The notes beneath the pieces are model-generated. The model worked only from the letters and a program-made list of their open reading frames with translations, searched no databases and had not been told where the DNA came from. This document shows positions 30,724-43,408 of a DNA stretch of 64,000 nt, piece after piece. Every line of letters begins with the position of its first letter. Position 1 is the first letter of the stretch. The position numbers were made by a program, and so were the translations under genes. The DNA is from Pseudomonas fulva (GTDB lineage Bacteria; Pseudomonadota; Gammaproteobacteria; Pseudomonadales; Pseudomonadaceae): positions 2,604,001 to 2,668,000 of the forward strand of contig NZ_CP082928.1 of NCBI RefSeq assembly GCF_023517795.1, read 5' to 3'.

Positions 30724-30758
30724 AAAACCCCGTCGTCTCGATGGGGTTTTGCTTTTTT
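30724..30758 (+). terminator. Terminator between the DUF1289 gene and rnk
   Basis: An 8-bp stem AAAACCCC/GGGGTTTT with an 11-base loop is followed by GCTTTTTT. It closes the cyaY unit, so rnk must have its own promoter or depend on read-through. Confidence 0.75.
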
Positions 30759-30788
30759 GGCGTCCAGCAAAGGAGATATGCCCGCACC

Positions 30789-31196
30789 ATGGCCAGCACA
30801 CCGTCCATCACCATTACCCGTCTCGATCTGCAGCGCCTCGAGCAGTTGCTCGACGGCCTCGATGATTTCGGCCCGACAGCCGAGGCCCTGCAGGCCGAGC
30901 TGGATCGCGCCGAGGTGGTCGGCCACGAGCAGATTCCGGCCGGGGTGGTGACCATGAATTCACGTGTGCATTGTCGCGAGGAAGGAAGTGGCAAGGACTA
31001 CCACCTGACCCTGGTCTACCCCCAGGACGCCGGCGGTGAAGGCAAGGTCTCGATCCTTGCACCGGTGGGTGCGGCCCTGCTGGGCCTGAGCGTCGGCCAG
31101 CATATCGACTGGCCGGCACCGGGCGGCAAGCAGCTCAAACTGACCCTGCTGGAGGTCGAATACCAGCCCGAAGCGGCCGGCGAATACGATCGCTGA
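30789..31196 (+). CDS. rnk: Regulator of nucleoside diphosphate kinase
   Basis: A 135-residue GreA/GreB-like protein. N-terminal short coiled coil (about 10-45) and C-terminal FKBP-like GreA domain with VYPQDAGGEGKVSILAPVGAALLGLSVGQ. Rnk binds RNA polymerase and influences Ndk and alginate in P. aeruginosa. The AGGAG site is 13 bases before the ATG, longer than usual, but no better in-frame start exists. Confidence 0.88.
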   Translation: MASTPSITITRLDLQRLEQLLDGLDDFGPTAEALQAELDRAEVVGHEQIPAGVVTMNSRVHCREEGSGKDYHLTLVYPQDAGGEGKVSILAPVGAALLGLSVGQHIDWPAPGGKQLKLTLLEVEYQPEAAGEYDR

Positions 31197-31278: not shown

Positions 31279-32970
31279 TCAAGCCGTGACCGGCGACCGT
31301 GCCACCGGGCTGCATGCCGGCCCACATTCCTGCAGATCGATGCTGCGTTCGAACAGGCGCTGCACCGCCGGCTGATGGCTGACGCCGACCAGCGTGCAGT
31401 CCGGCAGGCGTTCGCGCAGGCGCATGAAGAGTTCGCAGGCGGCCCGTTCGTCGAGCTGGTTGGTGGCCTCGTCGAGGTACAGGGTATCGGGCCGATAGAG
31501 CAGAGCACGGGCCAGGGCCAGGCGCTGCTGCTCGCCGCCCGAGAGTTCGCGGCCCCATTCGGCTTCCCGCTCCAGGTCTGCCGCCAGGTGGCCGAGGCCG
31601 ACATCCTGCAGCGCGCCGATCAATTCCAGGGTGGCCGGTACCTGCGCCGCGGGGTAGGCCAGCGCTTCGTCGAGCCGGCCGCTGGCCAGGTAGGGCTTCT
31701 GGGGCAGCAGCAGGCTGCGCCCGCCGGGTAGTTGCCAGCTGCCGCGGTGGTGCGGCCAGAGGCCCATCAGGGTGCGCAGCAGGGTGGTCTTGCCCAGGCC
31801 ACTGGCGCCGGCCAGGCGCAACCATTCACCGGGCCGCGCGTGCAGCGCCAGGCCGCACAGCAGCGCCTCGCCATTGGGCCGCAGCACATCCAGGCCGCCG
31901 GTGCTGAGGCTCTCGCCACGTTCGAGTACGACCGGCTGCAGGCGTTCCATGGCCTGCTGGAACTGACCCAGGCGCTGCACCGTGGCGCTCCATTCGGCCA
32001 GGTCGCGGTAGGAGAAGATGAACCAGCTCAGTGACTCCTGGACGGCTTTGAAGGCGCCGCGAATCTGCATCAAGCCGCCCAGGGTAATCGCCTTGGACAG
32101 GTAGAGTGGCAATGCGATGAACACCGGCACGATAAGACTGATGCGACTGTAGCCTGCGGTGAAAATGCCTAGCTTCAGCTCGCATTGCATCAGGTTTCGC
32201 CAGTTCGCGGCGATGGCAGAGAAACGCAGATCCAGACCTTTGCGTTCGGCCGCTTCTCCGCCATAAAGGGCGATCTGCTCGGCATGCTCGCGTTTGCGCA
32301 GCAGGTCGGCGCGGTAGGCGGCTTCGCTGCGCTGGCGCTCATAGTTCAGGCCGTGCAGCGGATGGCCGAGCCAATGGGTGAGGGCGGTGGCGACCAGGGT
32401 ATAGATGATTGCTGCCCAGACCAGATAGCCATCGATGGTCAGGTTGTAGCCGCCAATGTCGTAAGTTTGGGTGCCTGACAATTGCCAGAGGATGCTGAAG
32501 AAGGCACCGATCTGCAGGCTGTTGATAAACAGCGAGACGACGATGCCGACGGTCTTGTCTGCCAGCAGGTAGACATCTTCGGCGATACGTTGATCCGGAT
32601 AGTCCGTTTCACCGCTCAGGCCCAGGCGATAGTAACGGCGCTCGCCCAGCCAGCGCTCCAGCAGATGGTCGTTGAGGTGCTGGCGCCAGCGCAGCATCAG
32701 CGCCTTGTTGAACCAGTCCTTGGCGACTATTGCGGCGACCACTAGGCCGACGGCAATAGCGTACTGGCCCATCAGACCGAGCAGGGCCTTGCCGTCGAAG
32801 GTCGCCAGGGTGTCGTAGAAGGTCTTGCTCCACTCGCTGATATAGACGTTGACCTGTACCAGGCCGGCGCCCATGGCCAAAGCCAGCGCCAGCAGGGCCC
32901 AGCCCGGCCAGCCGGCGCGGCTGCCCCAGAACGGCCTGGCGAGCCTGAAGAACAGACGCAAGGTGTTCAC
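31279..32970 (-). CDS. yddA: ABC transporter permease/ATPase, YddA (SbmA/BacA-related) type
   Basis: A 563-residue fused permease-ATPase. Residues 1-330 form the SbmA/BacA-like membrane domain (EWSKTFYDTL, LNYERQRSEAAYRADLLRKREHAEQIALYGGE). The ATPase has Walker A GASGLGKTT (388-396), signature LSGGEQQRLALARAL near 477 and Walker B TLYLDEATNQLD. The start is GTG in a 4-base overlap with the protease gene. Length matches E. coli YddA (561). In related systems this component is thought to move the imported fragment or cofactor, or to export something; direction is not settled. Confidence 0.85.
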   Translation of the reverse strand: MNTLRLFFRLARPFWGSRAGWPGWALLALALAMGAGLVQVNVYISEWSKTFYDTLATFDGKALLGLMGQYAIAVGLVVAAIVAKDWFNKALMLRWRQHLNDHLLERWLGERRYYRLGLSGETDYPDQRIAEDVYLLADKTVGIVVSLFINSLQIGAFFSILWQLSGTQTYDIGGYNLTIDGYLVWAAIIYTLVATALTHWLGHPLHGLNYERQRSEAAYRADLLRKREHAEQIALYGGEAAERKGLDLRFSAIAANWRNLMQCELKLGIFTAGYSRISLIVPVFIALPLYLSKAITLGGLMQIRGAFKAVQESLSWFIFSYRDLAEWSATVQRLGQFQQAMERLQPVVLERGESLSTGGLDVLRPNGEALLCGLALHARPGEWLRLAGASGLGKTTLLRTLMGLWPHHRGSWQLPGGRSLLLPQKPYLASGRLDEALAYPAAQVPATLELIGALQDVGLGHLAADLEREAEWGRELSGGEQQRLALARALLYRPDTLYLDEATNQLDERAACELFMRLRERLPDCTLVGVSHQPAVQRLFERSIDLQECGPACSPVARSPVTA

Positions 32971-35756
32971 GAACCGGCGCCTTCTGCAGGCAGCACCTGC
33001 ATGCGCACCTCATTGGCCAGCGGGAAGATCTGCCGGGCCAGGCGCTTCATCGCCGCCGTTTCCAGCGCGGCGGGCAGCTTGTCCTGCTCGCTCAGGTAGC
33101 GCGGGTCGCCCCAGGCGCGCTCGCTGAGCATCAGCCGGTGCAACTGGGTGGCGGGGTCTTCACGGCGCTGGTTTTCCTTGCGCTGCAGCTCATTGCGCAG
33201 GGCCGCCACGCGCGGCTCGGTGACTGCCACGGGTAGCGCCGCCAGGGTTTCCTGGGCCAGTTGCCAGAGTTCGTCGGCGCGCTGCGGCGCGCTGCTGAAG
33301 TGCAGCTCGCTGTCGATGCGCTGGTGCGCGTGGCTCAGTTCGCTGTCGAAGCGCAGGCGGTAGATGCCGGTGGCATCGCCACGCAGGCGCTGCTTGAGTT
33401 CGGCGTTGGCAATTTCCCGCAGGGCGGCGATGCGCGCGGCGTCGGCCGGGTTCCAGGCGTGCGGCTGGAAGCTGCTGGCATACAAGCTGGCGCGTGGCTC
33501 CAGGGCGATGGCCAGTGTCGCCAGGCGACGACCGGGCTGGCGTGCCACGGGCGCAGCCTGCAAGGGCTCACCGCGGGGGATGGCCGCCAGGTAGCGGCTG
33601 ACCAGCGCCTGCAGCTCGGCTTCGGGCAGGTCGGCCATCAGGTAGTAGGTGACAGGGGCGGCAGCCTGGCGCAGCCAGTCGGCTTCCAGCTGGCTGCGGC
33701 TCAAGGCGTTCAGCGCCTCGGCAGTGGGCGCCTGCCAGTCGTCCTGGCCCTGCTTGAGGCGTCGCCAGGTGGCGTCCTGTTCGCTGCGCACGTGGTCGCG
33801 CTGGCGCTGCAGCTGATCGTGGAGCTGCCCGACGCTGTCGCGGTAGGCCTGTTCGTCCAGGGTAGTGCGTGTCTGCCGGGCCTGGTAGAAGGCCAGCAGG
33901 CTGGCCAGTTGCTGCGGCGCGGCGCTGCCCTGGGCTTCCAGGCGGCTGGCCTGTTGCTCGAAGGACAGCTGCACGCCTTCGAGCTTCTTCCAGGCGTTCA
34001 GCTGTTCTTCGCTCCAGCCGGTTGGCGGGGTCTGCAAGGCCAGCTGGCTGGCGATCTGCGCGCGCCACGGCAGGGCGCCCCGATACCGGAAGCCGGCGCT
34101 GGAGTCGACTCGCAGCTGTACCTTGCCGTCGGCACCGGGGCGGCGCAGCCATACCAGGCGGTCACCGTTGCTCAGTTGCCAGTGCTCGACCTGTTCGGCT
34201 GCGAAGCGGCGCCGCTCGACAATGCGCCCCGCCGGCAAGGCGCTGCTCAGCGTGGGGACCACGACCTCCGCCTGGGCAGCGGGTGGCAGCGGCGCGGCCA
34301 GCTCGGTATCGGCCAGGATCTGCCACTGCCGCAGCACGCTGGCGGCCGTGGGCAGCTCCAGTTCCATGCCCCCCGGCGCGCTGAGCTGCAGCACCCGATC
34401 CGGGCTGGCCAGCCAGCTGCGGAGGCGCTGCTGCAGATCGTCCGCGTCGATGGCGTCCAGATTGGCCAGGGTAATGCGGGCGATGGCTGCCGGTTCCTGC
34501 AGCACCCGCTCGGCAAGGGTCGCGTCGTTGAGCTGGCGTACCCAGCCATCGAAATCCCGCTGCGCCGGATCGCTCAGCATGCGTTCGGCGATCCGGCGGA
34601 TATCGTCCTTCACGGCCTGCACGTCGTCCTCGTGCAGCGGATGGCGGTCGATGCGCTGCAGCTCGCGCAGCAGGGCTTGCAGCGACTGCTCGTGATGCTG
34701 ACCCTTGACCGCGGCGGCCACGGCCAATACGCCGCTGCGCCGGCCGATCTGGGTCTTCACAGCAGTAAGGCTGCTGGTCTGGGTTTCATCCAGCGGCTGG
34801 CGGCGCAACTGACGCGACAGCACGCTGAGGGCCAAGCGGTCGATCAGCCGGTCGCGGCTGGCGGCGCGGGTCTGTTCGCGGCTGTCGAGCTGGCTGAAGC
34901 GAAACAGCAGGGCGACCTGGTTGCTGCCGCTCTGGCTGTCCTGTACGCGAAACACCTTCAGCCTGTCGTCCAGTGGCAGTTCCAGGTGCTCGCGACTCGG
35001 CACGTTGCCGCGCCGAGGCTTGGCGAACGCCTGCTCGATCTGCCCGATCAGCCGGTGCGGCTCGAAGTCGCCGACGACGTTCAGCACCATGTTGTTAGGC
35101 AGGTACCAACGCTGCTGAAAGGCCTGCAATGCGCCCAGCTGCGCCTCTTCGATGGCCTGGCGGTTGCCGATGGTGCGGTGCGCGGGGTACCGCGAGCCGG
35201 TGCGCTGGGCGGCGGTGCGCTTGGCGTTCATGCGCTGGGCCACACCCAGGCCGCCGCGCCATTCCTCGATGACGATGGGACGCTCGCGGTTCAGGTCCTC
35301 TGCGGTGAAGTCGGCGGCGAAGGCCATGTTGGCCAGGGTCTGTAGCGCCAGCGCGGCGCTCTTGACGCCATCGGGCGGGCTGAGCAGGTACTGGGTGCGG
35401 TCGTAGCTGGTCACCGCATTGAAATGCCGGCCCTGTTGCCAGCCGGCCTTTTGCAGGCGCTGGCGCACGTCGAGCGGCTCACCGCCGTGGCTGTAGAAGG
35501 CCAGGTGCTCGAGCATATGGGCGACACCGATCTGGTCGTCGGCCTCGTCCACCGAGCCGGCGTGCACCGTCAGGCGCATATCCAGACGGCCCTTTTGCTC
35601 ATCGGTGCGGATCAGGTTGTAACGCAAGCCGTTGGGCAGCTCGCCACGGGTGACGATGGGGTGCCACTGCAACTGCGCGTCGCCGGCGGGCAGGGAGGTG
35701 CAGGCACCGAGCAGCAACGCTGCCAGTGCCGTGAGGAGGGCTTTCACGGGATGCAT
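32967..35756 (-). CDS. pqqL: Periplasmic M16B zinc protease, PqqL/FusC type, predicted lipoprotein
   Basis: A 929-residue tandem M16 metallopeptidase, the size of E. coli PqqL (931). The inverted zinc motif H80-MLE-H84 and distal Glu in IVIEEW near 164 are intact. The second half is the inactive M16 repeat. Residues 1-19 are a signal with lipobox LLGAC19, so it is probably membrane-anchored, unlike a plain soluble FusC. It lies 14 bases after the TonB-dependent receptor and overlaps the ABC gene. FusC and PqqL cut imported plant-type ferredoxin or related proteins; the substrate here is unknown. Confidence 0.85.
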   Translation of the reverse strand: MHPVKALLTALAALLLGACTSLPAGDAQLQWHPIVTRGELPNGLRYNLIRTDEQKGRLDMRLTVHAGSVDEADDQIGVAHMLEHLAFYSHGGEPLDVRQRLQKAGWQQGRHFNAVTSYDRTQYLLSPPDGVKSAALALQTLANMAFAADFTAEDLNRERPIVIEEWRGGLGVAQRMNAKRTAAQRTGSRYPAHRTIGNRQAIEEAQLGALQAFQQRWYLPNNMVLNVVGDFEPHRLIGQIEQAFAKPRRGNVPSREHLELPLDDRLKVFRVQDSQSGSNQVALLFRFSQLDSREQTRAASRDRLIDRLALSVLSRQLRRQPLDETQTSSLTAVKTQIGRRSGVLAVAAAVKGQHHEQSLQALLRELQRIDRHPLHEDDVQAVKDDIRRIAERMLSDPAQRDFDGWVRQLNDATLAERVLQEPAAIARITLANLDAIDADDLQQRLRSWLASPDRVLQLSAPGGMELELPTAASVLRQWQILADTELAAPLPPAAQAEVVVPTLSSALPAGRIVERRRFAAEQVEHWQLSNGDRLVWLRRPGADGKVQLRVDSSAGFRYRGALPWRAQIASQLALQTPPTGWSEEQLNAWKKLEGVQLSFEQQASRLEAQGSAAPQQLASLLAFYQARQTRTTLDEQAYRDSVGQLHDQLQRQRDHVRSEQDATWRRLKQGQDDWQAPTAEALNALSRSQLEADWLRQAAAPVTYYLMADLPEAELQALVSRYLAAIPRGEPLQAAPVARQPGRRLATLAIALEPRASLYASSFQPHAWNPADAARIAALREIANAELKQRLRGDATGIYRLRFDSELSHAHQRIDSELHFSSAPQRADELWQLAQETLAALPVAVTEPRVAALRNELQRKENQRREDPATQLHRLMLSERAWGDPRYLSEQDKLPAALETAAMKRLARQIFPLANEVRMQVLPAEGAGS

Positions 35757-35770
35757 GGGCGCGCGCCTTC

Positions 35771-38635
35771 TTAGAATTGGTAGCCGACTTCGAGCCAGTA
35801 CTGGCGGCCCATTTCGTACTTGTAACCAGAGCTGCTGTAGATTTCGGCCACTTCATCCAGGACGTTCTTCACGTCCACGGCAACGAAGGCGGACTGGTCG
35901 CGCACCACCGGAATCTGCCATTTGGCGCGTAGATCCCAGGTAAAGGCGGCGTTGACCTCGCCGAAGTTGTAGTTGTCGTAGGTGGTTCCCCCCACCTCGA
36001 TGGTCCCGTCGGCCACGATCTGCTCATACCCGGCGCGATAGCGAAGGAAGTTGCTGAGCGTCATGTTCGCCTGGGGAACGTGGGTGATGGTGGTCACGCG
36101 CGCTGTCCACGGGCGGTTGAAGTTGGCTGCAGGCAATTGGCTGTAGCGCATGAGCTGGCCGTCGTACATCACCAGTTCGTCGTTCAGCTCGTCGCGCGAG
36201 AACGAAACGTCGTAATTGGAGTTGAATGTGCTCTGCGTGCGTGTCCAGTCGGCAGCAAACTGCACGTTGGAGCGAGTACCGAGCAGGCGAAACTCCGCGT
36301 CGGGCGTGATCGTCAGCGAAACCGCATCGGTCTCGCTGCTACCCGCGTTGGTATAAACGGTGTAAGTAGTGCTTTCGTTCAGGCCATCGCCGCTTGGCAG
36401 GCCGAGGTTCACGCCCTGAGTCCTGACCACCTGATCGCGTCCTTCACGGCGCACGTACTTGAGTTCGAAGGTCGTGTTCAACCAGCGTTGCGCAATGCCA
36501 ACCATCCATTCGTCGTTGTAGGGAATATCGATCTTGCGGAACGAGCTGCTATCGGCAACCCCTCTGGTGATCGGACCGAACTCGCTGAGTGTATTGCCTG
36601 TCGCGACCGGTCGCGACTGCCTGTATTCCAGGGATTCACGGCCATCTGCCAGGCGATACTTGAACATGGTCCGCCCGTAGTAGCGGTTGAACCCTGTCGT
36701 CAGTACCGTGCTTGAGTCGCCGAACAGGTCGTAGTCGGCGGAGAAGCGCGGAGCGATGGTTTTCTTTTCCATGTAGTCATCGCCATCGAAGCGGACGCCG
36801 GGGCGCAACTGCAAGCGGCCCCACTGCATACGATCCTGCAGGAACAGGGCGTAGCGCTTTTCGTCCATGGCTATTTCCCCGGCGTTGTAGTGCGTCAGGC
36901 TGCGAAAATACTGGCGGGTAAGAGCGCCCGATACGTTGGTGCCGATGGAGCAATACTCGCTATCGAGTTCTCCGCTCGAGTAATTGCAGGTGTTGGTGCC
37001 GGCTGGGGTCGCGGTCAAGGCGGCGGCAGTCGTTGCGCTTTCAGGGCGTTTGTAATTGGCCTGTTGATAGGCCAGCTCCAGGCCCGCCTGGAAATTGTGC
37101 TCGATCCCCAGCGCGTGAATGGGCTCCCAATCGGATTTGAAGGTGTAGGTCATGCTTTTCTGGCGTTGCTCGATATCGCCGAAGCTACCCTCGCGACTCA
37201 GGCTCGTGTTACTGAGCGGATTGCCCCAGTTCTTTTCACTCGACCATCGCCATTGCTTGCTGACGTTGCTGTCGCTGTCACGTGAGCTTTGCAGGTCGGT
37301 GTATGCAAGATTGTGGGTGTAGGTTGCGTTATCGCCGAACCAGGTGGCTTTGACAGATGCCTGTTGGCCGCCCTGAATCAGGACGAAGTCGGAGTTCTTG
37401 GCGTTCTCGCGGAAGTACTCGCTTTCCTGGGGGGCGTGGGTGAGTGACACGTCGAGTTGCAGGCGGTCGTTGACCTGCCAGTAGGTCTTGAGAAGGAAGT
37501 TGTCGATTTGCCGCGTCTGGTCTTTCTTGCTGGTGTCGCCTGAACTGTTGAAGTCATTGGCGTAGGCATTCAGCGGAATGGTGGAATGCTTACGCGAAAA
37601 ATTGAAAAGAGCGCCGAAGTTTTCGGTGAGATGACCTTCCAGGGTGCCCCTCAAGGTCCATTTCTCGAACTCGGGCTGTTCCTGGGTCGTGGTGGAATTT
37701 TCGAATCCCTCACGGTCTTCCTCGTTGATGTGATAGTTGGCCCAGGCTGAGCGGCTCATGCTGGCCGACAGCTTGCCGTGCAGCTCCTGTGTCGGGCGCC
37801 GGGTAATCGCGTTGATGACCCCGCCATTGAACCCACCGTATTCGGCCGGTACGTTGCTGTCGTAGACCCTCACTTCTTCGAGCAGGTCGGCATCCAGGGC
37901 AATGCCGTGGCTACGGCTGGGTGTACCCCTGGCATCGGCGATGGTGTTCCAGTCATGGCGGCCAGGGTCGATGTCATTGTTGATCCCCACGCCGTCGATC
38001 ATGAAGCTGTTCTGATAGAACTCGGCGCCGTTGATGCTGATATCGGCGGGATCGATTTCGCCGGGTGTGCTCGAGCTTTGCTGGGTGTTGCTGAACTGCA
38101 CGCTGGGGTGCATCTGCAGCAGTGTGGTGATATCGCCGTTGGCGCCGGGAAAGGCTTCGATGGCCCGTCGATCCACCACCGTTTCGCCCATGAAGCTCTG
38201 GCTGGCCGCAGCGAGCACCACGGTATTACCCAGCTCCAGCGCTTCCTGTTGGCTGGCCACCGGGAAGAAGGTCAGCAGCTGCTGCTGATAGTTCCAGCCG
38301 ATGTTGCTGCCTTCCAGCAAACGCGACAGCGCCTGTTCGCTGCTTATCTGCCCGGTGATCGCCTTGCTGCGCAGGTGACCGACCAGCTGTTGATCGGCGC
38401 TGACCTGCAGGCCGCTCTGCTGGGCGAAGGCGATCAGGGCGTCGGCCAGGGGTTGGGCAGGAATGTCGAAGGCATGGTGTTGCTGCAGCAGTGCGCTGGA
38501 GGCGTCCTGCGCCATGGCCGTACCGACGCTGACCGGCAGGGCGCCGCACAGGCCGAGCAGGCCCAGGCTGATGACTCTGCCCAGGGCCCTGGCAGGGATG
38601 AGGGGATTTGCGGGCAACCGCGACTGCTTGTTCAT
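35771..38635 (-). CDS. TonB-dependent receptor with N-terminal signalling domain
   Basis: A 954-residue outer-membrane receptor. Signal peptide to about 42 (AMA-QD), STN domain about 55-125 (FDIPAQPLADALIAFAQQSG), plug about 150-285 (DISINGAEF, FMIDGVG), then a 22-strand barrel ending in the aromatic tail YWLEVGYQF. The STN domain touches FecR-type proteins, so ligand binding can switch on the ECF sigma factor encoded beside it. It heads the operon with the M16 protease and ABC gene. By context it imports a small iron protein or a peptide, not a standard siderophore; the ligand is inference. Confidence 0.9.
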   Translation of the reverse strand: MNKQSRLPANPLIPARALGRVISLGLLGLCGALPVSVGTAMAQDASSALLQQHHAFDIPAQPLADALIAFAQQSGLQVSADQQLVGHLRSKAITGQISSEQALSRLLEGSNIGWNYQQQLLTFFPVASQQEALELGNTVVLAAASQSFMGETVVDRRAIEAFPGANGDITTLLQMHPSVQFSNTQQSSSTPGEIDPADISINGAEFYQNSFMIDGVGINNDIDPGRHDWNTIADARGTPSRSHGIALDADLLEEVRVYDSNVPAEYGGFNGGVINAITRRPTQELHGKLSASMSRSAWANYHINEEDREGFENSTTTQEQPEFEKWTLRGTLEGHLTENFGALFNFSRKHSTIPLNAYANDFNSSGDTSKKDQTRQIDNFLLKTYWQVNDRLQLDVSLTHAPQESEYFRENAKNSDFVLIQGGQQASVKATWFGDNATYTHNLAYTDLQSSRDSDSNVSKQWRWSSEKNWGNPLSNTSLSREGSFGDIEQRQKSMTYTFKSDWEPIHALGIEHNFQAGLELAYQQANYKRPESATTAAALTATPAGTNTCNYSSGELDSEYCSIGTNVSGALTRQYFRSLTHYNAGEIAMDEKRYALFLQDRMQWGRLQLRPGVRFDGDDYMEKKTIAPRFSADYDLFGDSSTVLTTGFNRYYGRTMFKYRLADGRESLEYRQSRPVATGNTLSEFGPITRGVADSSSFRKIDIPYNDEWMVGIAQRWLNTTFELKYVRREGRDQVVRTQGVNLGLPSGDGLNESTTYTVYTNAGSSETDAVSLTITPDAEFRLLGTRSNVQFAADWTRTQSTFNSNYDVSFSRDELNDELVMYDGQLMRYSQLPAANFNRPWTARVTTITHVPQANMTLSNFLRYRAGYEQIVADGTIEVGGTTYDNYNFGEVNAAFTWDLRAKWQIPVVRDQSAFVAVDVKNVLDEVAEIYSSSGYKYEMGRQYWLEVGYQF

Positions 38636-38676
38636 ACCTTCCCCGAACGGGCCAGCGGCCCAATTGAAAGCTAATG

Positions 38677-38694
38677 CGAATCTGTATCGATTCG
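38677..38694. promoter_or_regulatory. Dyad upstream of the TonB-dependent receptor
   Basis: CGAATC-TGTATC-GATTCG is a perfect 6-bp dyad 42 bases before the receptor start, inside the promoter region where the ECF sigma factor should act. Binding factor unknown. Confidence 0.35.
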
Positions 38695-38762
38695 TGTTCG
38701 AGGCAATGACGTGTCGGCGCTGAAAATTTTCAGAGAAAGTCGAATTATTTTTTTGAGATCAG

Positions 38763-38784
38763 AAAAAGCCGCTCGAAAGCGGCT
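38763..38784 (-). terminator. Terminator after fecR
   Basis: AGCCGCT/AGCGGCT stem with CGAA loop, followed on the minus strand by TTTTT. It overlaps the fecR stop codon, separating sigma/anti-sigma transcription from the receptor operon. Confidence 0.75.
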
Positions 38785-39770
38785 CAGGGTTCGCGGTCGA
38801 CGACTCGCAGCCAGGCTGTCCAAGTGCTGACTCGCCCCTGATAGGGTTGGATGACGGCGCGCAGGGCGGCATCCGGGTTGCGCAGGTCGTAGACGCCGGT
38901 GATGCGCCTGTCGCCCAGTTCATCGTCGCGTAACGCCAGCTTGCCCGGCAGATAGGGGCGCAATTCGTCGAGCACATCGGCAATGCGGGCGTCGCGCACC
39001 ACCAGACGGCCTTGCTGCCAAGCGGCTATCTGGCTGACCGGGAGCGTGTCGCGAGTAACCTGGTCGCTGCCGCGCCACTGCAGCCGGTCGCCTGTGCGCA
39101 GCGCTTCGGCCAAGGTCTGGTTGCCCTCGGCCACCCGCACCGAGCCATGCTGCACCGCGACGGTCAGTTGGCTGGGGCGCACGCTCACGTTGAACGCTGT
39201 GCCGGTCACGGTGATCTGCAGGTTGTGCGCATCGACCCTGAAGGGCCGGCTCTGGTCCGGGGTTACCTCGAAGAACGCCTGGCCGCTGAGCAGGCGTACC
39301 TCACGGCGGTTGCCGTCGAACTCGACGCTGATCGCCGACTGGCTGTCGAGCTGCACGCGGCTGCCGTCGTCCAGTTCGATGCTGCGCTGCTGACCCAGGC
39401 CCGTACGGTAGTCGCTCTGGTAGCGGAGATAGGCGTCAGGGGCCATCCACAGCATGAAACAGGCGGCCAGCGAACCCGCCAGCAGGGCTGGCCAGCGCCG
39501 CCTGCGTGGGCGCTGCGAGCCTGGAGCTGAAACCGCCGCTGTAGCGATGCCGGCGGCCGGTATGCGGGGGCGTTCGGTGGGAGGCGGGGCTGCCGCTGCC
39601 GCGGTCGAGCCGGTCAGTTGCCAGACCCGCTCGGCCTTGCGATAGGCCTCGACATGACGGGGGTCGATGGCCAGCCAGGCGGCCAGCTCGGTCCGCAGCG
39701 CGGCATCCTCGGGGCGCTGCTGGATGCGCAGCAGCCAGTCCAGTGCGGTGTGGGTGAGGTTGCCGGTCAT
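38784..39770 (-). CDS. fecR: FecR-type anti-sigma/signalling protein
   Basis: A 328-residue inner-membrane regulator. An N-terminal cytoplasmic DUF4880 domain binds the sigma factor (WLLRIQQRPEDAAL, PRHVEAYRKAERVW). A basic RPRRRRW stretch and one membrane helix (about 93-110) follow. The periplasmic FecR domain (SIELDDGSRVQLDSQSAI, VTGTAFNV) receives the signal from the receptor STN domain. The gene is 90 bases after the sigma factor gene. Confidence 0.9.
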   Translation of the reverse strand: MTGNLTHTALDWLLRIQQRPEDAALRTELAAWLAIDPRHVEAYRKAERVWQLTGSTAAAAAPPPTERPRIPAAGIATAAVSAPGSQRPRRRRWPALLAGSLAACFMLWMAPDAYLRYQSDYRTGLGQQRSIELDDGSRVQLDSQSAISVEFDGNRREVRLLSGQAFFEVTPDQSRPFRVDAHNLQITVTGTAFNVSVRPSQLTVAVQHGSVRVAEGNQTLAEALRTGDRLQWRGSDQVTRDTLPVSQIAAWQQGRLVVRDARIADVLDELRPYLPGKLALRDDELGDRRITGVYDLRNPDAALRAVIQPYQGRVSTWTAWLRVVDREP

Positions 39771-39860
39771 GGTCGTTGCGGATCGTCCTTAAAGGTGGGC
39801 AAGGGTCGCACACACGCGCCCCTGCGAGCAAAGGACGGCTCAGCGCCGCGGATTTTCAGC

Positions 39861-40385
39861 TCAGCCATTGGCCTGCTCCAGGCGATCGGCGCAATGACAC
39901 AGCGCCTGGTGCACCAGTTGGTGCGCCAGGCCGACGGAAATATTCAGGGTGACGGCGATCTGCTGCAGGGTATGGCCTTCCAGGCGGTGCATGGCGAAGG
40001 CGCGCTGCACGCGAGGCGGCAGTTCAGCCAGGGCCGCGTTGACGAGGCGCAGCTCGGCGCTGGTGCTGGCCTGTTGCTCGGGCCCCGGCTTGTCGTCGGA
40101 GAGGGTTTCGAGCAGCTCGTCGCCATCGGGTTGGCGGCGCTCGGTCGCGTCCCGGCGGCTCAGGTCGAATGCCAGGTTGCGGACGATTCGGTAGAGATAG
40201 CCCACTGGCTGCTCGATCACCGCGTCGACGCTGTCGCGGCTGCTGAAGCGCAGCCAGGCTTCCTGCACCACGTCTTCGGCCTGGGCGCGGCAACTGAGCA
40301 GCGAGGCGGCGTAGTCCACCAGGGCGAGGCGGTGGAGGAGGTACAGGTCGAGTTTGGGATTGGTTGCTGGGGACACGATTGGCAC
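39861..40385 (-). CDS. fecI: FecI-type ECF sigma factor
   Basis: A 174-residue ECF sigma factor. The region 2 motif (AEDVVQEAWLRF, GYLYRIVRNLAFDLSRR) and region 4 helix-turn-helix (LPPRVQRAFAMHRLEGHTLQQIA) are present. The start is GTG; a second in-frame GTG lies three codons on and neither has a strong ribosome site. A Fur-like box lies about 60 bases upstream. It should direct transcription of the receptor operon when FecR is signalled. Confidence 0.85.
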   Translation of the reverse strand: MPIVSPATNPKLDLYLLHRLALVDYAASLLSCRAQAEDVVQEAWLRFSSRDSVDAVIEQPVGYLYRIVRNLAFDLSRRDATERRQPDGDELLETLSDDKPGPEQQASTSAELRLVNAALAELPPRVQRAFAMHRLEGHTLQQIAVTLNISVGLAHQLVHQALCHCADRLEQANG

Positions 40386-40442
40386 TGCCGCAAGCCGTGC
40401 ACAGCGGGCGTGCCACAGCGAGCGAGCATGTTAGCTTATCGT

Positions 40443-40461
40443 GAGAATTGTTATCAATAAG
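40443..40461. promoter_or_regulatory. Fur-box-like sequence upstream of fecI
   Basis: GAGAATTGTTATCAATAAG matches the 19-bp Fur consensus at 12 positions. It lies 58-76 bases upstream of the fecI start and overlaps the last codons of cyaA. Position fits iron-repressed sigma factor expression; binding is predicted only. Confidence 0.5.
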
Positions 40462-43303
40462 GTCTGGGCGCGGCCAGCGCACCGTTCAGTGCCTCTTCGA
40501 GGCTGGCCTTGTAGCGCAGGTAATGCACTGCCGAGGGTTGCCTGTCGCCGAGCAACGCGGAAAGGTCCAGGTCGGTGATGTAGCAGGGGTAAGGCTGCTC
40601 CTCGCTGCGCTGGGCGAGGATATGCCGGGCCACGGTGGCGAACAGTTGCTCGCCGTGTTCGAGCTCGGAAAATTCCCGATGATTGCAGAACAGGCTGATG
40701 TAGGCGCGCGGGCCGGTGCCCGGCTCGACGATGGCCTGCACGTCATAGAACGGCAGGCTGACTTCGCTCTGCGGCGCCGGCCTGGGTTCCAGGCGTTGCG
40801 CGCGCAGCGGGGCGGCGGGCAGCAGTTGGTGGTAGAGAATTTCCAAGGGCTGTGGCGGCCCTTCCAGGGCCTGGGCGGCGTCGCGTCGATACAGCAGCGA
40901 TTGCAGGAAGCGGTGCAGCGGCGTCAGCAGGCTGGTTTCGTTATGGAACGGCGCCTGGCTGCGCCACAGCGCGCCGCATTCGTCCAGCACGCTGATCTGG
41001 GCCAGACCGTCCGCTTCGTGCAGGCGGTAGAACACCTGGATGCACCCAGGGCGCCCGGCCTCGAGGATCAGCGCCAGGTCGTCGCCTGTCAGCGCGTTGC
41101 GGTCCAGGCGCAGCGCGCTGTACTCGGCGCGGTCCTGGGCCAGGTGCTCGAGCAGCGCCGGCCGATCCTCCAGCGTGCTGTGCCGGACGTTGCCGGGTGA
41201 CAGGTCGAGCAAGTGATAGCGGCGAGCGATCTGCAGCAGGTAGCGCGGCCGCTCGCCGCTGTCGAGGCAGTCGATCAACTCGCCGAGCAGGCCCTCGACC
41301 CTCTCGACGATGGTCGCGGCACGGTTGCGGCAATAGCAGAGCACCCGCAGGTTGGCACGCTCATCGCCGGCGGGCAGGGCATTGAGTACGTCGCTCAGGC
41401 AGTCGAGCAGGGCGGTGGAACCCTCGTAACGTTCGACCAGCAGCTCGTTCCAGCTGTTGAGGGTGATCCGGTCGAGGGTCAGCACCAGGTTGTCGCGCAC
41501 GCCCGAGTAGCCCAGGGGGTCGGTGCGCTCACTGGTCATGTGCACATTCATCTGGCTGTGCTGCCTGAGCGGGTCGCGGCCGACGTTGATCAGCAACAGC
41601 TCCTCGGCCGGCCGACGCGGTCGCGCCAGGGCGGCCTCGGTCGCGGCTGGCAACGGCATGGGCAGGTTCTGGGCCAGGCAGCCGAGCAACTGGCTGAGTT
41701 CGAACTCGGTGAGGTCGCTGTCGCCCGGATGCAGTGACAGGTGGGTGCCGCTGTCGATCACGCCGTTGCGGTGACTCCAGGCGAGCAGCTCGATCAGGCT
41801 GCGGGCCTGGCGCAGGGGCGCGAAATCCTGCCATTCCTGAGCGCCCAGGCTGCCGTTGTACAGCGCCCAGCGCTCGCCCTTGGGCGTCGGGTTATGCACC
41901 AGGGTCAGGGTATCTTCGCCCAGGTCCGGGGCGATGCCCGGGTTGATGAATTCCACCTTGCCGGCGCGACGTTCGAAGGCGGCATACAGGCGGCGGCCCA
42001 GCACGGCCAGGTCGCGGCTATCGGCCGCCACGCCATCGGCGCGATGGCGGGCGAACAGCGACAGGAAGCGGTAGCTGTAGTTGAGTTCGTTGACCAGTGC
42101 CTGGCGCTCGGCGACGACCTGGCGGACCTTCCACTGGCTGCGGCTGTCGAGCAGGATCAACTGGCGCTCGCCCCAGCCCCACTCCCCCGTCAGCCGCTCG
42201 AGCAGCAGGCGTTGCCAGCTCTTTTCGCGGTGGCGCGGCGGTTTGCTGATCTTCTTGTTGACCTTCAGGTACAGGCAGCGCCTGACCAGCTCCAGGCGCT
42301 CGGTTTCGCCACGCGCCTGCAGGTATTCCTCCAGACGGCGGTAGATCAGCACATAGGGATCCAGTTCGTCGAGGTCGAGCAGGCCGTTGTAGACCGCCTG
42401 CTTGAAACGCAGCGACAGGCAACGTACCTGGGGATGCTCGCTGGCATAGACCTCGGTGAGCAGCAACTTGAGCGCCGACTTGTAGGGCGATTCGATTCCC
42501 TTGAACAGCTGCCACATGCCGGCACCGAGAAACTCACCAGCCGGCACCTGGGCCAGGTGGCCGAAATCGAGCACGTCTTCGGCGCGGACGAAGCGCTTGC
42601 TCAGCAGGGTCTCGGTCACCTGGGCGTAGCGATGCTCGTCGCCGGCCGGCACCAGCCACCACAGCGGCATGCGCCCGCCTAGCCAGATCGCCGTGCGGTA
42701 GAACTCGTCGAGGAGCAGGAAATGCTGGGTGGTGCCGCAGTCGTCCGAGGTCAGCTGCGCTTCGCGGGCGCCGCTGCGAAAGCGCTCGGGGTCGATCAGG
42801 AAGAAGTGCGCCTCGGCGCCCTGGCCGGCCGCCCAGCTCTGCAGCAGGTCGCATTTGCGGCGCAGGGCTTCGCGGCTGCCCTCGTCGAGATCGCTGGCGT
42901 GGCAGACCCACAGGTCCATGTCGCTCTGCTCGGCCTGGGCCACGGTGCCCAGGCTGCCCATCAGAAACAGGCCATGGATGGGCGTCGGCGCTTGGGCGCG
43001 AGCCGGCTTGTAGGCGAACGAGCGGGTCAGGCGCTGGGCTTCGGCCAGGAGCTCGGGCGAAGGTTCGAAGTGGGCCAGCCCGGCCGGCGTCTGCGCCGAT
43101 ACATAGCCGGGCAGCAGCGGATGATTGACGTGGAACAGCAGTGGCAGCAACGTCAGCACGCGTTGCTGGCGGGGCGACAGGGCCTGCATGGCGCGCTGCT
43201 GACGACCGTGGTTGATGCGCATGAAGCGCGCACGCAGCTGGGTCAGCACCTTGCGGTCGATGCCGTCATCGATGTCGGGGCGCAGGGGAAGGTGGCGCGT
43301 CAT
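40454..43303 (-). CDS. cyaA: Class I adenylate cyclase
   Basis: A 949-residue enterobacterial-type adenylate cyclase making cAMP for Vfr/CRP control. The nucleotidyltransferase core GSLGTVAQAEQSDMDLWV is at about 116-133, with DCGTTQHFLLLDEFYRTA and WLVPAGDE further on. The C-terminal half is the regulatory region. The ATG at 43303 (MTRHLPLRP) is chosen because the 33 upstream codons lack family sequence. Monocistronic or transcribed with the small upstream genes at a distance of about 105 bases. Confidence 0.92.
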   Translation of the reverse strand: MTRHLPLRPDIDDGIDRKVLTQLRARFMRINHGRQQRAMQALSPRQQRVLTLLPLLFHVNHPLLPGYVSAQTPAGLAHFEPSPELLAEAQRLTRSFAYKPARAQAPTPIHGLFLMGSLGTVAQAEQSDMDLWVCHASDLDEGSREALRRKCDLLQSWAAGQGAEAHFFLIDPERFRSGAREAQLTSDDCGTTQHFLLLDEFYRTAIWLGGRMPLWWLVPAGDEHRYAQVTETLLSKRFVRAEDVLDFGHLAQVPAGEFLGAGMWQLFKGIESPYKSALKLLLTEVYASEHPQVRCLSLRFKQAVYNGLLDLDELDPYVLIYRRLEEYLQARGETERLELVRRCLYLKVNKKISKPPRHREKSWQRLLLERLTGEWGWGERQLILLDSRSQWKVRQVVAERQALVNELNYSYRFLSLFARHRADGVAADSRDLAVLGRRLYAAFERRAGKVEFINPGIAPDLGEDTLTLVHNPTPKGERWALYNGSLGAQEWQDFAPLRQARSLIELLAWSHRNGVIDSGTHLSLHPGDSDLTEFELSQLLGCLAQNLPMPLPAATEAALARPRRPAEELLLINVGRDPLRQHSQMNVHMTSERTDPLGYSGVRDNLVLTLDRITLNSWNELLVERYEGSTALLDCLSDVLNALPAGDERANLRVLCYCRNRAATIVERVEGLLGELIDCLDSGERPRYLLQIARRYHLLDLSPGNVRHSTLEDRPALLEHLAQDRAEYSALRLDRNALTGDDLALILEAGRPGCIQVFYRLHEADGLAQISVLDECGALWRSQAPFHNETSLLTPLHRFLQSLLYRRDAAQALEGPPQPLEILYHQLLPAAPLRAQRLEPRPAPQSEVSLPFYDVQAIVEPGTGPRAYISLFCNHREFSELEHGEQLFATVARHILAQRSEEQPYPCYITDLDLSALLGDRQPSAVHYLRYKASLEEALNGALAAPRPY

Positions 43304-43408
43304 GCTCGGGCTCTGCCGGGTGATGAGCAAGCCTACAGGCGCGGCGTGCCTGCTCGCAATGACCGCCGGGAAGGGCCTGCCGCATCGGGCGGCAGGCAGC
43401 ATCAGGCG

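Follow-up and report, generated by a model that had tools for sequence, protein, structure and literature searches.

To our knowledge, only a few bacteria have been proven to import proteins for nutrition, and for most such systems no substrate is known. In the Fus system (fusBACD) of Pectobacterium, intact ferredoxin is imported by FusA in a process driven by FusB and is cut by FusC (PMC6793856, PMC6071955 and PMC7593965, in the portions available). Grinter et al., 2019 describe clusters of FusA with FusC, one of them in Pseudomonas, as well as FusA homologues whose genes neighbour those of cytochrome c peroxidases (PMC6793856, accessible text). A receptor, a protease and an ABC protein, the same three functional parts as in the locus reported here, also make up YddA-YddB-PqqL of E. 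coli. The FecI-FecR-FecA system and the Pseudomonas FpvA, FoxA, PupB and IutA systems have in common with this locus a sigma factor, a FecR Gly-Thr bond and a receptor signalling domain; a Fur-like site and a conserved receptor promoter pattern are also shared. The locus differs from them in that its receptor has a FusA-type body and that the genes placed under control include a protease. In HasI-HasS-HasR-HasA, a surface protein acts on a receptor with FecI/FecR-type regulators (PMC9249621, available part). With HasA-HasR-HasI/HasS there is thus already a precedent for surface signalling linked to a protein. In that system the cell produces HasA, haem alone is passed on, and no protease takes part.

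The window analysed here is a stretch of 64,000 nucleotides from Pseudomonas fulva. A block spanning 31279-40385 on the minus strand contains five intact ORFs and is flanked by rnk and cyaA:

30741-31196, plus strand: flanking Rnk gene, 151 aa from the first ATG (by eye, an internal ATG is the likelier start); Pfam Rnk_N and GreA_GreB
31279-32970, minus strand: YddA/FusD-like ABC protein gene, 563 aa; Pfam ABC_membrane_2 and ABC_tran above cut-off, also SbmA_BacA
32967-35756, minus strand: FusC-like M16 metalloprotease gene, 929 aa; Pfam Peptidase_M16 and M16_C above cut-off
35771-38635, minus strand: FusA/YddB-like TonB-dependent receptor gene, 954 aa; Pfam Plug above cut-off
38261-38500, minus strand: receptor signalling (STN) domain, residues 46-125
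38784-39770, minus strand: FecR-type sigma regulator gene, 328 aa; Pfam DUF4880 and FecR above cut-off
39861-40385, minus strand: FecI-family ECF sigma gene, 174 aa from GTG; Pfam Sigma70_r2 and r4_2 above cut-off
40454-43402, minus strand: flanking class-I adenylate cyclase gene cyaA; Pfam Adenylate_cycl and Adenyl_cycl_N

The place and the kinds of the five genes agree with the first-pass annotation, an annotation made from the sequence alone. Four bases are shared by the protease ORF and the ABC ORF, and the receptor stop and the protease start are 14 bases apart. Compared with Fus, the block contains a FusA-like receptor, a FusC-like protease with the same active-site numbers and a FusD-like ABC protein, and these shared parts are in identical order (order of fusBACD from the accessible text of PMC6963963). 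It adds FecI, FecR, the receptor signalling domain and a lipobox-like signal on the protease, and no FusB-like gene was found.

Comparison of the receptor with PDB sequences gave FusA (4zgv, E=5.6e-94) as the best match and YddB (6ofr, 7.8e-76) as the second; HasR (8.4e-11), FpvA (3.9e-10) and the remaining matches were far weaker and lay chiefly across the signalling domain and plug. Foldseek comparison of the AlphaFold2 receptor model (mean pLDDT 73) with known folds likewise put FusA first (1.2e-62) and YddB second (2.3e-55), followed by FpvA (4.5e-28). The structural comparison with FusA proposed in the first-pass annotation thus came out on the side of FusA, and grouping with siderophore receptors, which the annotation had named as evidence against its reading, was not found by sequence or fold. 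The candidate identity of an ordinary siderophore receptor was rejected on both grounds. Judged by sequence and modelled fold, the receptor is of the FusA family, as in protease-associated import systems in the sense of Grinter et al., 2019. The STN domain claimed for it scored 23.4 bits in Pfam, under the cut-off of 28.4; however, this stretch matched isolated signalling domains in PDB (HasR 2m5j, 8.2e-10; pseudobactin-358 receptor 2a02, 8.7e-5) and was modelled as paired beta-alpha-beta units, in agreement with the claim.

The protease matched FusC (6b03, E=4.7e-199) much better than PqqL (6ofs, 1.8e-42), which sets the block apart from YddA-YddB-PqqL. A processing or other M16 peptidase was rejected, FusC being the best PDB match, and the grouping with processing peptidases that would have counted against the annotation was not seen. 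The predicted active-site residues are H80, H84 and E165, which is the numbering of FusC itself (PMC6071955 and PMC12731061, available parts). The ABC protein, annotated earlier as YddA-type, carries its membrane and ATPase domains within one chain (ABC_membrane_2 and ABC_tran) and also matches SbmA_BacA; its likeness to FusD was judged by Pfam domains.

Homologous loci with FecI/FecR beside a FusC-type gene, the search suggested by the annotation, were found. A named genome contig scan (80 of 121 relatives kept) yielded 73 loci, and pooling with genus and phylum sets gave 116 scanned loci. FusC-type loci were defined by an M16 score of at least 900 bits; 88 of the 116 passed, leaving 68 distinct loci after removal of 20 duplicates. 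The 28 loci under 900 bits (PqqL-type L064-L068, relic L063, distant L126-L142 and L146-L150) were left out. In 53 of the 68, sigma and FecR genes adjoin the receptor gene. Eight further loci have the signalling domain and the receptor promoter without an adjacent pair; a sigma orthologue is present elsewhere in the genome in 8/8, and a FecR orthologue was found in the three of these genomes that were searched. The remaining seven, used as comparators, have neither signalling domain nor promoter and come from Dickeya, Klebsiella, Tatumella and Erwinia (four Enterobacterales) and three further genomes. By a local profile the signalling domain was detected in 53/53 adjacent-pair loci, 8/8 held-out loci and 0/7 comparators, and Pfam at E<=0.1 found no STN in the five comparator receptors examined. 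The gene before the comparator receptor encodes a TonB_C protein in six cases and a TbpB-like protein in one. The ABC gene has a homologue in 65/68 loci, and the HxxEH...E motif is present in all 68 protease homologues. A lipobox-like signal, scored by a loose regular expression, occurs in 60/68 proteases, that is in 60/61 from signalling-type loci and 0/7 from comparators; this distribution suggests membrane anchoring of the protease, in line with its earlier prediction as a lipoprotein. In a protease tree, built quickly and with long-branch warnings (L038 and PqqL-type L066 excluded), the 61 signalling-type rows (the window, 52 and 8 loci) are set apart by a branch whose support is 100. Since the loci are related, these locus counts are not independent.

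The eight loci without an adjacent pair belong to the P. cichorii/viridiflava clade. The sigma/FecR pair lies ∼9 kb from the Fus-like receptor in G018 and G370 and ∼27 kb away in G149. By Pfam, the intervening block of both G018 and G370 carries a further receptor together with genes for TonB and a phytase, with ExbB and ExbD seen in G370. True loss of FecI/FecR in this clade was rejected, as the genomes of all eight loci contain the sigma orthologue. In the P. cichorii-type locus L196 (4039-10602), a tonB-exbD-exbB-phytase-receptor block, assigned by Pfam, separates fecR and the Fus-like receptor.

We also surveyed 398 Pseudomonas-genus genomes for protease matches (E<=1e-30) and the sigma orthologue (E<=1e-36). 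Protease matches were obtained in 36, comprising 30 full FusC-type proteases, one fragment and five PqqL-type proteases. The sigma orthologue was present in 44 of the 398, namely in 30/30 genomes with a full FusC-type protease versus 14/368 others, kinship being ignored, which places the FecI/FecR linkage beyond chance. Chance adjacency of FecI/FecR was rejected on the neighbourhood counts, the promoter pattern and this co-occurrence in the genus.

Several single loci deserve a record. The five genes occur in the Pseudomonas putida isolate W15Oct28 (L085). The block is present in Pseudothauera nasutitermitis (Zoogloeaceae), where the receptor ORF is just 305 aa (L220, 7135-8052). L063 in G025 is a relic with sigma and M16 fragments and an apparently intact ABC gene. 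In L145 (5034-6272), from a genome of the same class, a TbpB-like gene (Pfam barely above cut-off) adjoins a FusA-like receptor and an M16 protease.

Putative regulatory sites lie on the minus strand at four positions:

40443-40461, minus strand: Fur-box-like site that precedes the sigma gene and overlaps the stop codon of cyaA, 13/19 bases of the consensus
38766-38785, minus strand: terminator-like hairpin 3' of fecR
38708-38732, minus strand: FecI-type promoter-like element ahead of the receptor gene, TGAAAA ... CGTC
38670-38688, minus strand: weaker Fur-box-like site between the promoter and the receptor start, 13/19

The pattern TGAA[AG]A-N13-20-CGTC occurs between fecR and the receptor gene in 54/54 regions (the window and 53 others), against 0.24 expected from dinucleotide shuffles; it was derived from these same 54 sequences, and the only held-out set is the eight STN loci without adjacent FecR, which have it in 8/8. 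It was found in 0/7 comparator loci without the signalling domain. On this conserved pattern, the receptor promoter is a candidate for sigma dependence. The first-pass annotation had described one import operon with adjacent regulators; the adjacency stands, and the operon is refined to two likely transcription units, sigma-fecR and receptor-M16-ABC, which are suggested by the hairpin 3' of fecR and the FecI-type promoter pattern before the receptor gene. The hairpin is weak on its own because five such sites were found versus 7.2 in shuffles. The Fur-box scores are sequence matches out of 19 to a Fur-box consensus, on which scale the score of 13 of the window's sigma site was reached by 0/300 mononucleotide shuffles. 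Scores of at least 12 were seen in 50/54 sigma upstream regions and at least 13 in 43/54, and in 48/54 the score was reached by at most 5% of 300 mononucleotide shuffles. The sigma gene is a candidate for Fur control, given the Fur-like site in the window and in most homologues. By eye, the relatives' versions of the 38670-38688 site are more palindromic. Sigma homologue ORFs are 166-184 aa long in 50/53. FecR comprises an N-terminal DUF4880, a hydrophobic segment (by eye) and a predicted periplasmic FecR domain; its self-cleavage motif contains the Gly190-Thr191 bond, and the Gly-Thr motif is present in 53/53 FecR homologues. Cleavage at the Gly-Thr bond is known for FecR and FoxR (PMC9249621, available part).

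The suspicion that the block is an insertion was supported by the chromosomal junction. Of 18 further genus genomes that were inspected, 17 have this junction without the block, with 13-986 bp separating rnk from cyaA; no rnk was seen within 1.5 kb in the remaining one. Insertion is supported because the two genes adjoin in these 17, which include G009 and G018, genomes that have the block at another site. The rnk-cyaA site is used by 12 of the 68 loci (both flanks seen in 11, rnk alone in one), and a rough tblastx grouping sorted 67 downstream flanks into eight groups with at least two members each, plus 13 singletons. Comparison of DNA identity along the block with L070 and L076 pointed to an exchanged segment within the receptor gene:

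35853-38253 (approximate), minus strand: exchanged plug-barrel cassette

Against L070, the DNA of the window is 80-93% identical in the sigma and FecR genes and over the greater part of the signalling domain, and 86-90% next to the cassette; the value is 50-73% within the plug-barrel and ∼90% again in the protease gene. Identity to L076 is a steady 77-88% across the cassette, and the barrel is 89% identical to that of L076 at the protein level, though the FecR of L076 is just 70% identical. Among the 12 rnk-cyaA loci, pairwise distances of the signalling domain correlated with those of sigma (r 0.93) and FecR (r 0.91), values equalled by 0/5000 permutations for either, versus r of -0.06 for the plug, 0.03 for the barrel and 0.40 for M16. 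The contrast is weak across 49 loci. In the near relatives L036 and L077, sigma, FecR and the signalling domain are 39-51% identical to those of the window, and the protease and ABC protein 74-79%. As read from these alignments, the signalling domain at rnk-cyaA is inherited together with sigma and FecR, and plug and barrel are exchanged.

Sensor-coupled relatives with other gene content were also observed. The genus set includes 14 genomes that have the sigma orthologue but lack a full M16 protease. In 13 of them the same arrangement of sigma, FecR and signalling-domain receptor of the FusA-like kind is present, and a di-haem cytochrome c peroxidase gene comes next in place of M16 and ABC; the peroxidase was called by Pfam in three of the 13, and the other ten are 57-91% identical to one of these. 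The fourteenth, G037, has the sigma orthologue beside another receptor. The receptor promoter differs from that of the block, reading by eye TGGAAAT or TGGAAGT in place of TGAAAAT in the peroxidase-type loci (L206-L214, L216-L219). G356 carries two tandem sigma-FecR-receptor modules (L219, 4364-16001), one with a di-haem peroxidase gene and one with M16.

A PqqL-type lineage (L064-L068, five genus genomes) encodes a receptor with a signalling domain (5/5), an ABC protein and an M16 protease, with FecR and sigma genes downstream in convergent orientation (5/5). For both L065 and L067, YddB was the best PDB match of the receptor; the unnamed M16 peptidase 9ldy was the best match of the protease and PqqL the second. 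By eye, conserved TTGTCCCTTT and GATAATGATT elements precede the receptor gene in these loci and good Fur-like sites precede sigma. Since this YddB/PqqL-like lineage has its own FecR-sigma pair, FecI/FecR coupling of such import systems, as judged from gene content and sequence likeness, is found in two lineages.

The first-pass annotation had held that this coupling was not known to be described, and among the literature matches listed there was no paper on FecI/FecR together with FusC or PqqL. The main text of Grinter et al., 2019 (PMC6793856, apart from Fig. 2 and Table S1) contains no mention of FecI, FecR, STN, signalling domain or anti-sigma, and the word sigma occurs there just as part of the name of a supplier. 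FecR, PqqL and FusC occur together in a single listed paper, PMC6963963, whose accessible text handles them as separate Pectobacterium loci, and no link between FecI/FecR and import was seen in the available parts of the reviews PMC11658791 and PMC12731061. A gene of Pseudomonas plecoglossicida named fusA is reported to be induced by an iron chelator and to be required for growth in low iron (PMC8981516, available part).

We consider it likely that the locus encodes a Fur-gated, ligand-induced system that imports a small iron protein and cleaves it, a system of the FusA/FusC kind placed under cell-surface signalling. We infer the following course of events. At low iron, Fur would leave the sigma promoter, and the FecI-type sigma and FecR would be made. 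A ligand, most likely a small iron protein, would bind the outer face of the receptor, upon which the signalling domain would engage periplasmic FecR; processing of FecR would activate sigma, and the receptor, protease and ABC genes would be transcribed from the FecI-type promoter. A general TonB of the cell would draw the protein in, the M16 protease, which is probably anchored in a membrane, would cut it, and the ABC protein would take up iron or peptides. Because parts that serve other bacteria in the import and cleavage of an iron protein, such as plant ferredoxin, are joined with a surface sensor circuit, the cell probably assembles the machinery only under iron shortage and in the presence of the external protein. 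We know of no substrate for any signalling-coupled member of this import family.

The locus also departs from Fus in its TonB component. FusB is needed for ferredoxin import in Pectobacterium and binds the substrate directly (PMC7593965, available part). The genome of the window encodes four TonB_C proteins, all outside the window, and none of the four is close to the TonB_C proteins in the FusB position of two comparator loci. No FusB-like gene was found in the locus; therefore a general TonB may suffice or the cargo may differ. The lack of a FusB-like gene also fits a receptor that imports a small iron chelate or other small molecule with ordinary siderophore signalling, the M16 protease doing a side job, and FecI/FecR with a signalling-domain receptor is indeed the usual siderophore-receptor arrangement (PMC9249621, available part). 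We regard this as unlikely: the receptor is FusA/YddB-like in sequence and fold and far from siderophore receptors, and receptor and protease, with the ABC gene in 65/68, are kept together at several chromosomal sites.

Use of the imported protein or peptide for something else than iron supply, such as a nitrogen or cofactor source, would agree with the match of the ABC protein to the SbmA/BacA family. In the accessible text of PMC6793856, ferredoxin is deemed unlikely as a universal substrate, and PqqL and YddB gave no growth support under iron limitation in LB. The FecI-family sigma and the Fur-like site that precedes the sigma gene of most loci speak against such a purpose, and we hold it to be quite improbable. 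We think it very unlikely that FecI/FecR and the signalling domain are vestigial or respond to another signal, with the import genes simply under Fur control. Separation of the pair from the receptor gene in one clade, by ∼9 kb in two genomes and ∼27 kb in one, could be taken in this sense, but the clade keeps the sigma orthologue, the signalling domain and the promoter pattern in 8/8 each, and in L036 and L077 sigma, FecR and the signalling domain have been replaced together.

Uptake and cleavage of a small iron protein, with induction by this ligand, remain our preferred explanation. The locus links iron piracy from proteins with FecI/FecR signalling, each a well-studied field. With sensor-coupled import, the receptor promoter is a potential reporter to screen for the imported protein, and the mosaic receptors are natural allele pairs for mapping the cargo-recognising versus the signalling part. 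More tentatively, and with slightly less than even confidence, we propose that a Pseudomonas receptor family may sense an intact foreign iron protein and induce its dismantling; swapped plug-barrel cassettes would change the protein recognised, and two disposal routes, M16 and di-haem peroxidase, would lie behind the same kind of sensor.
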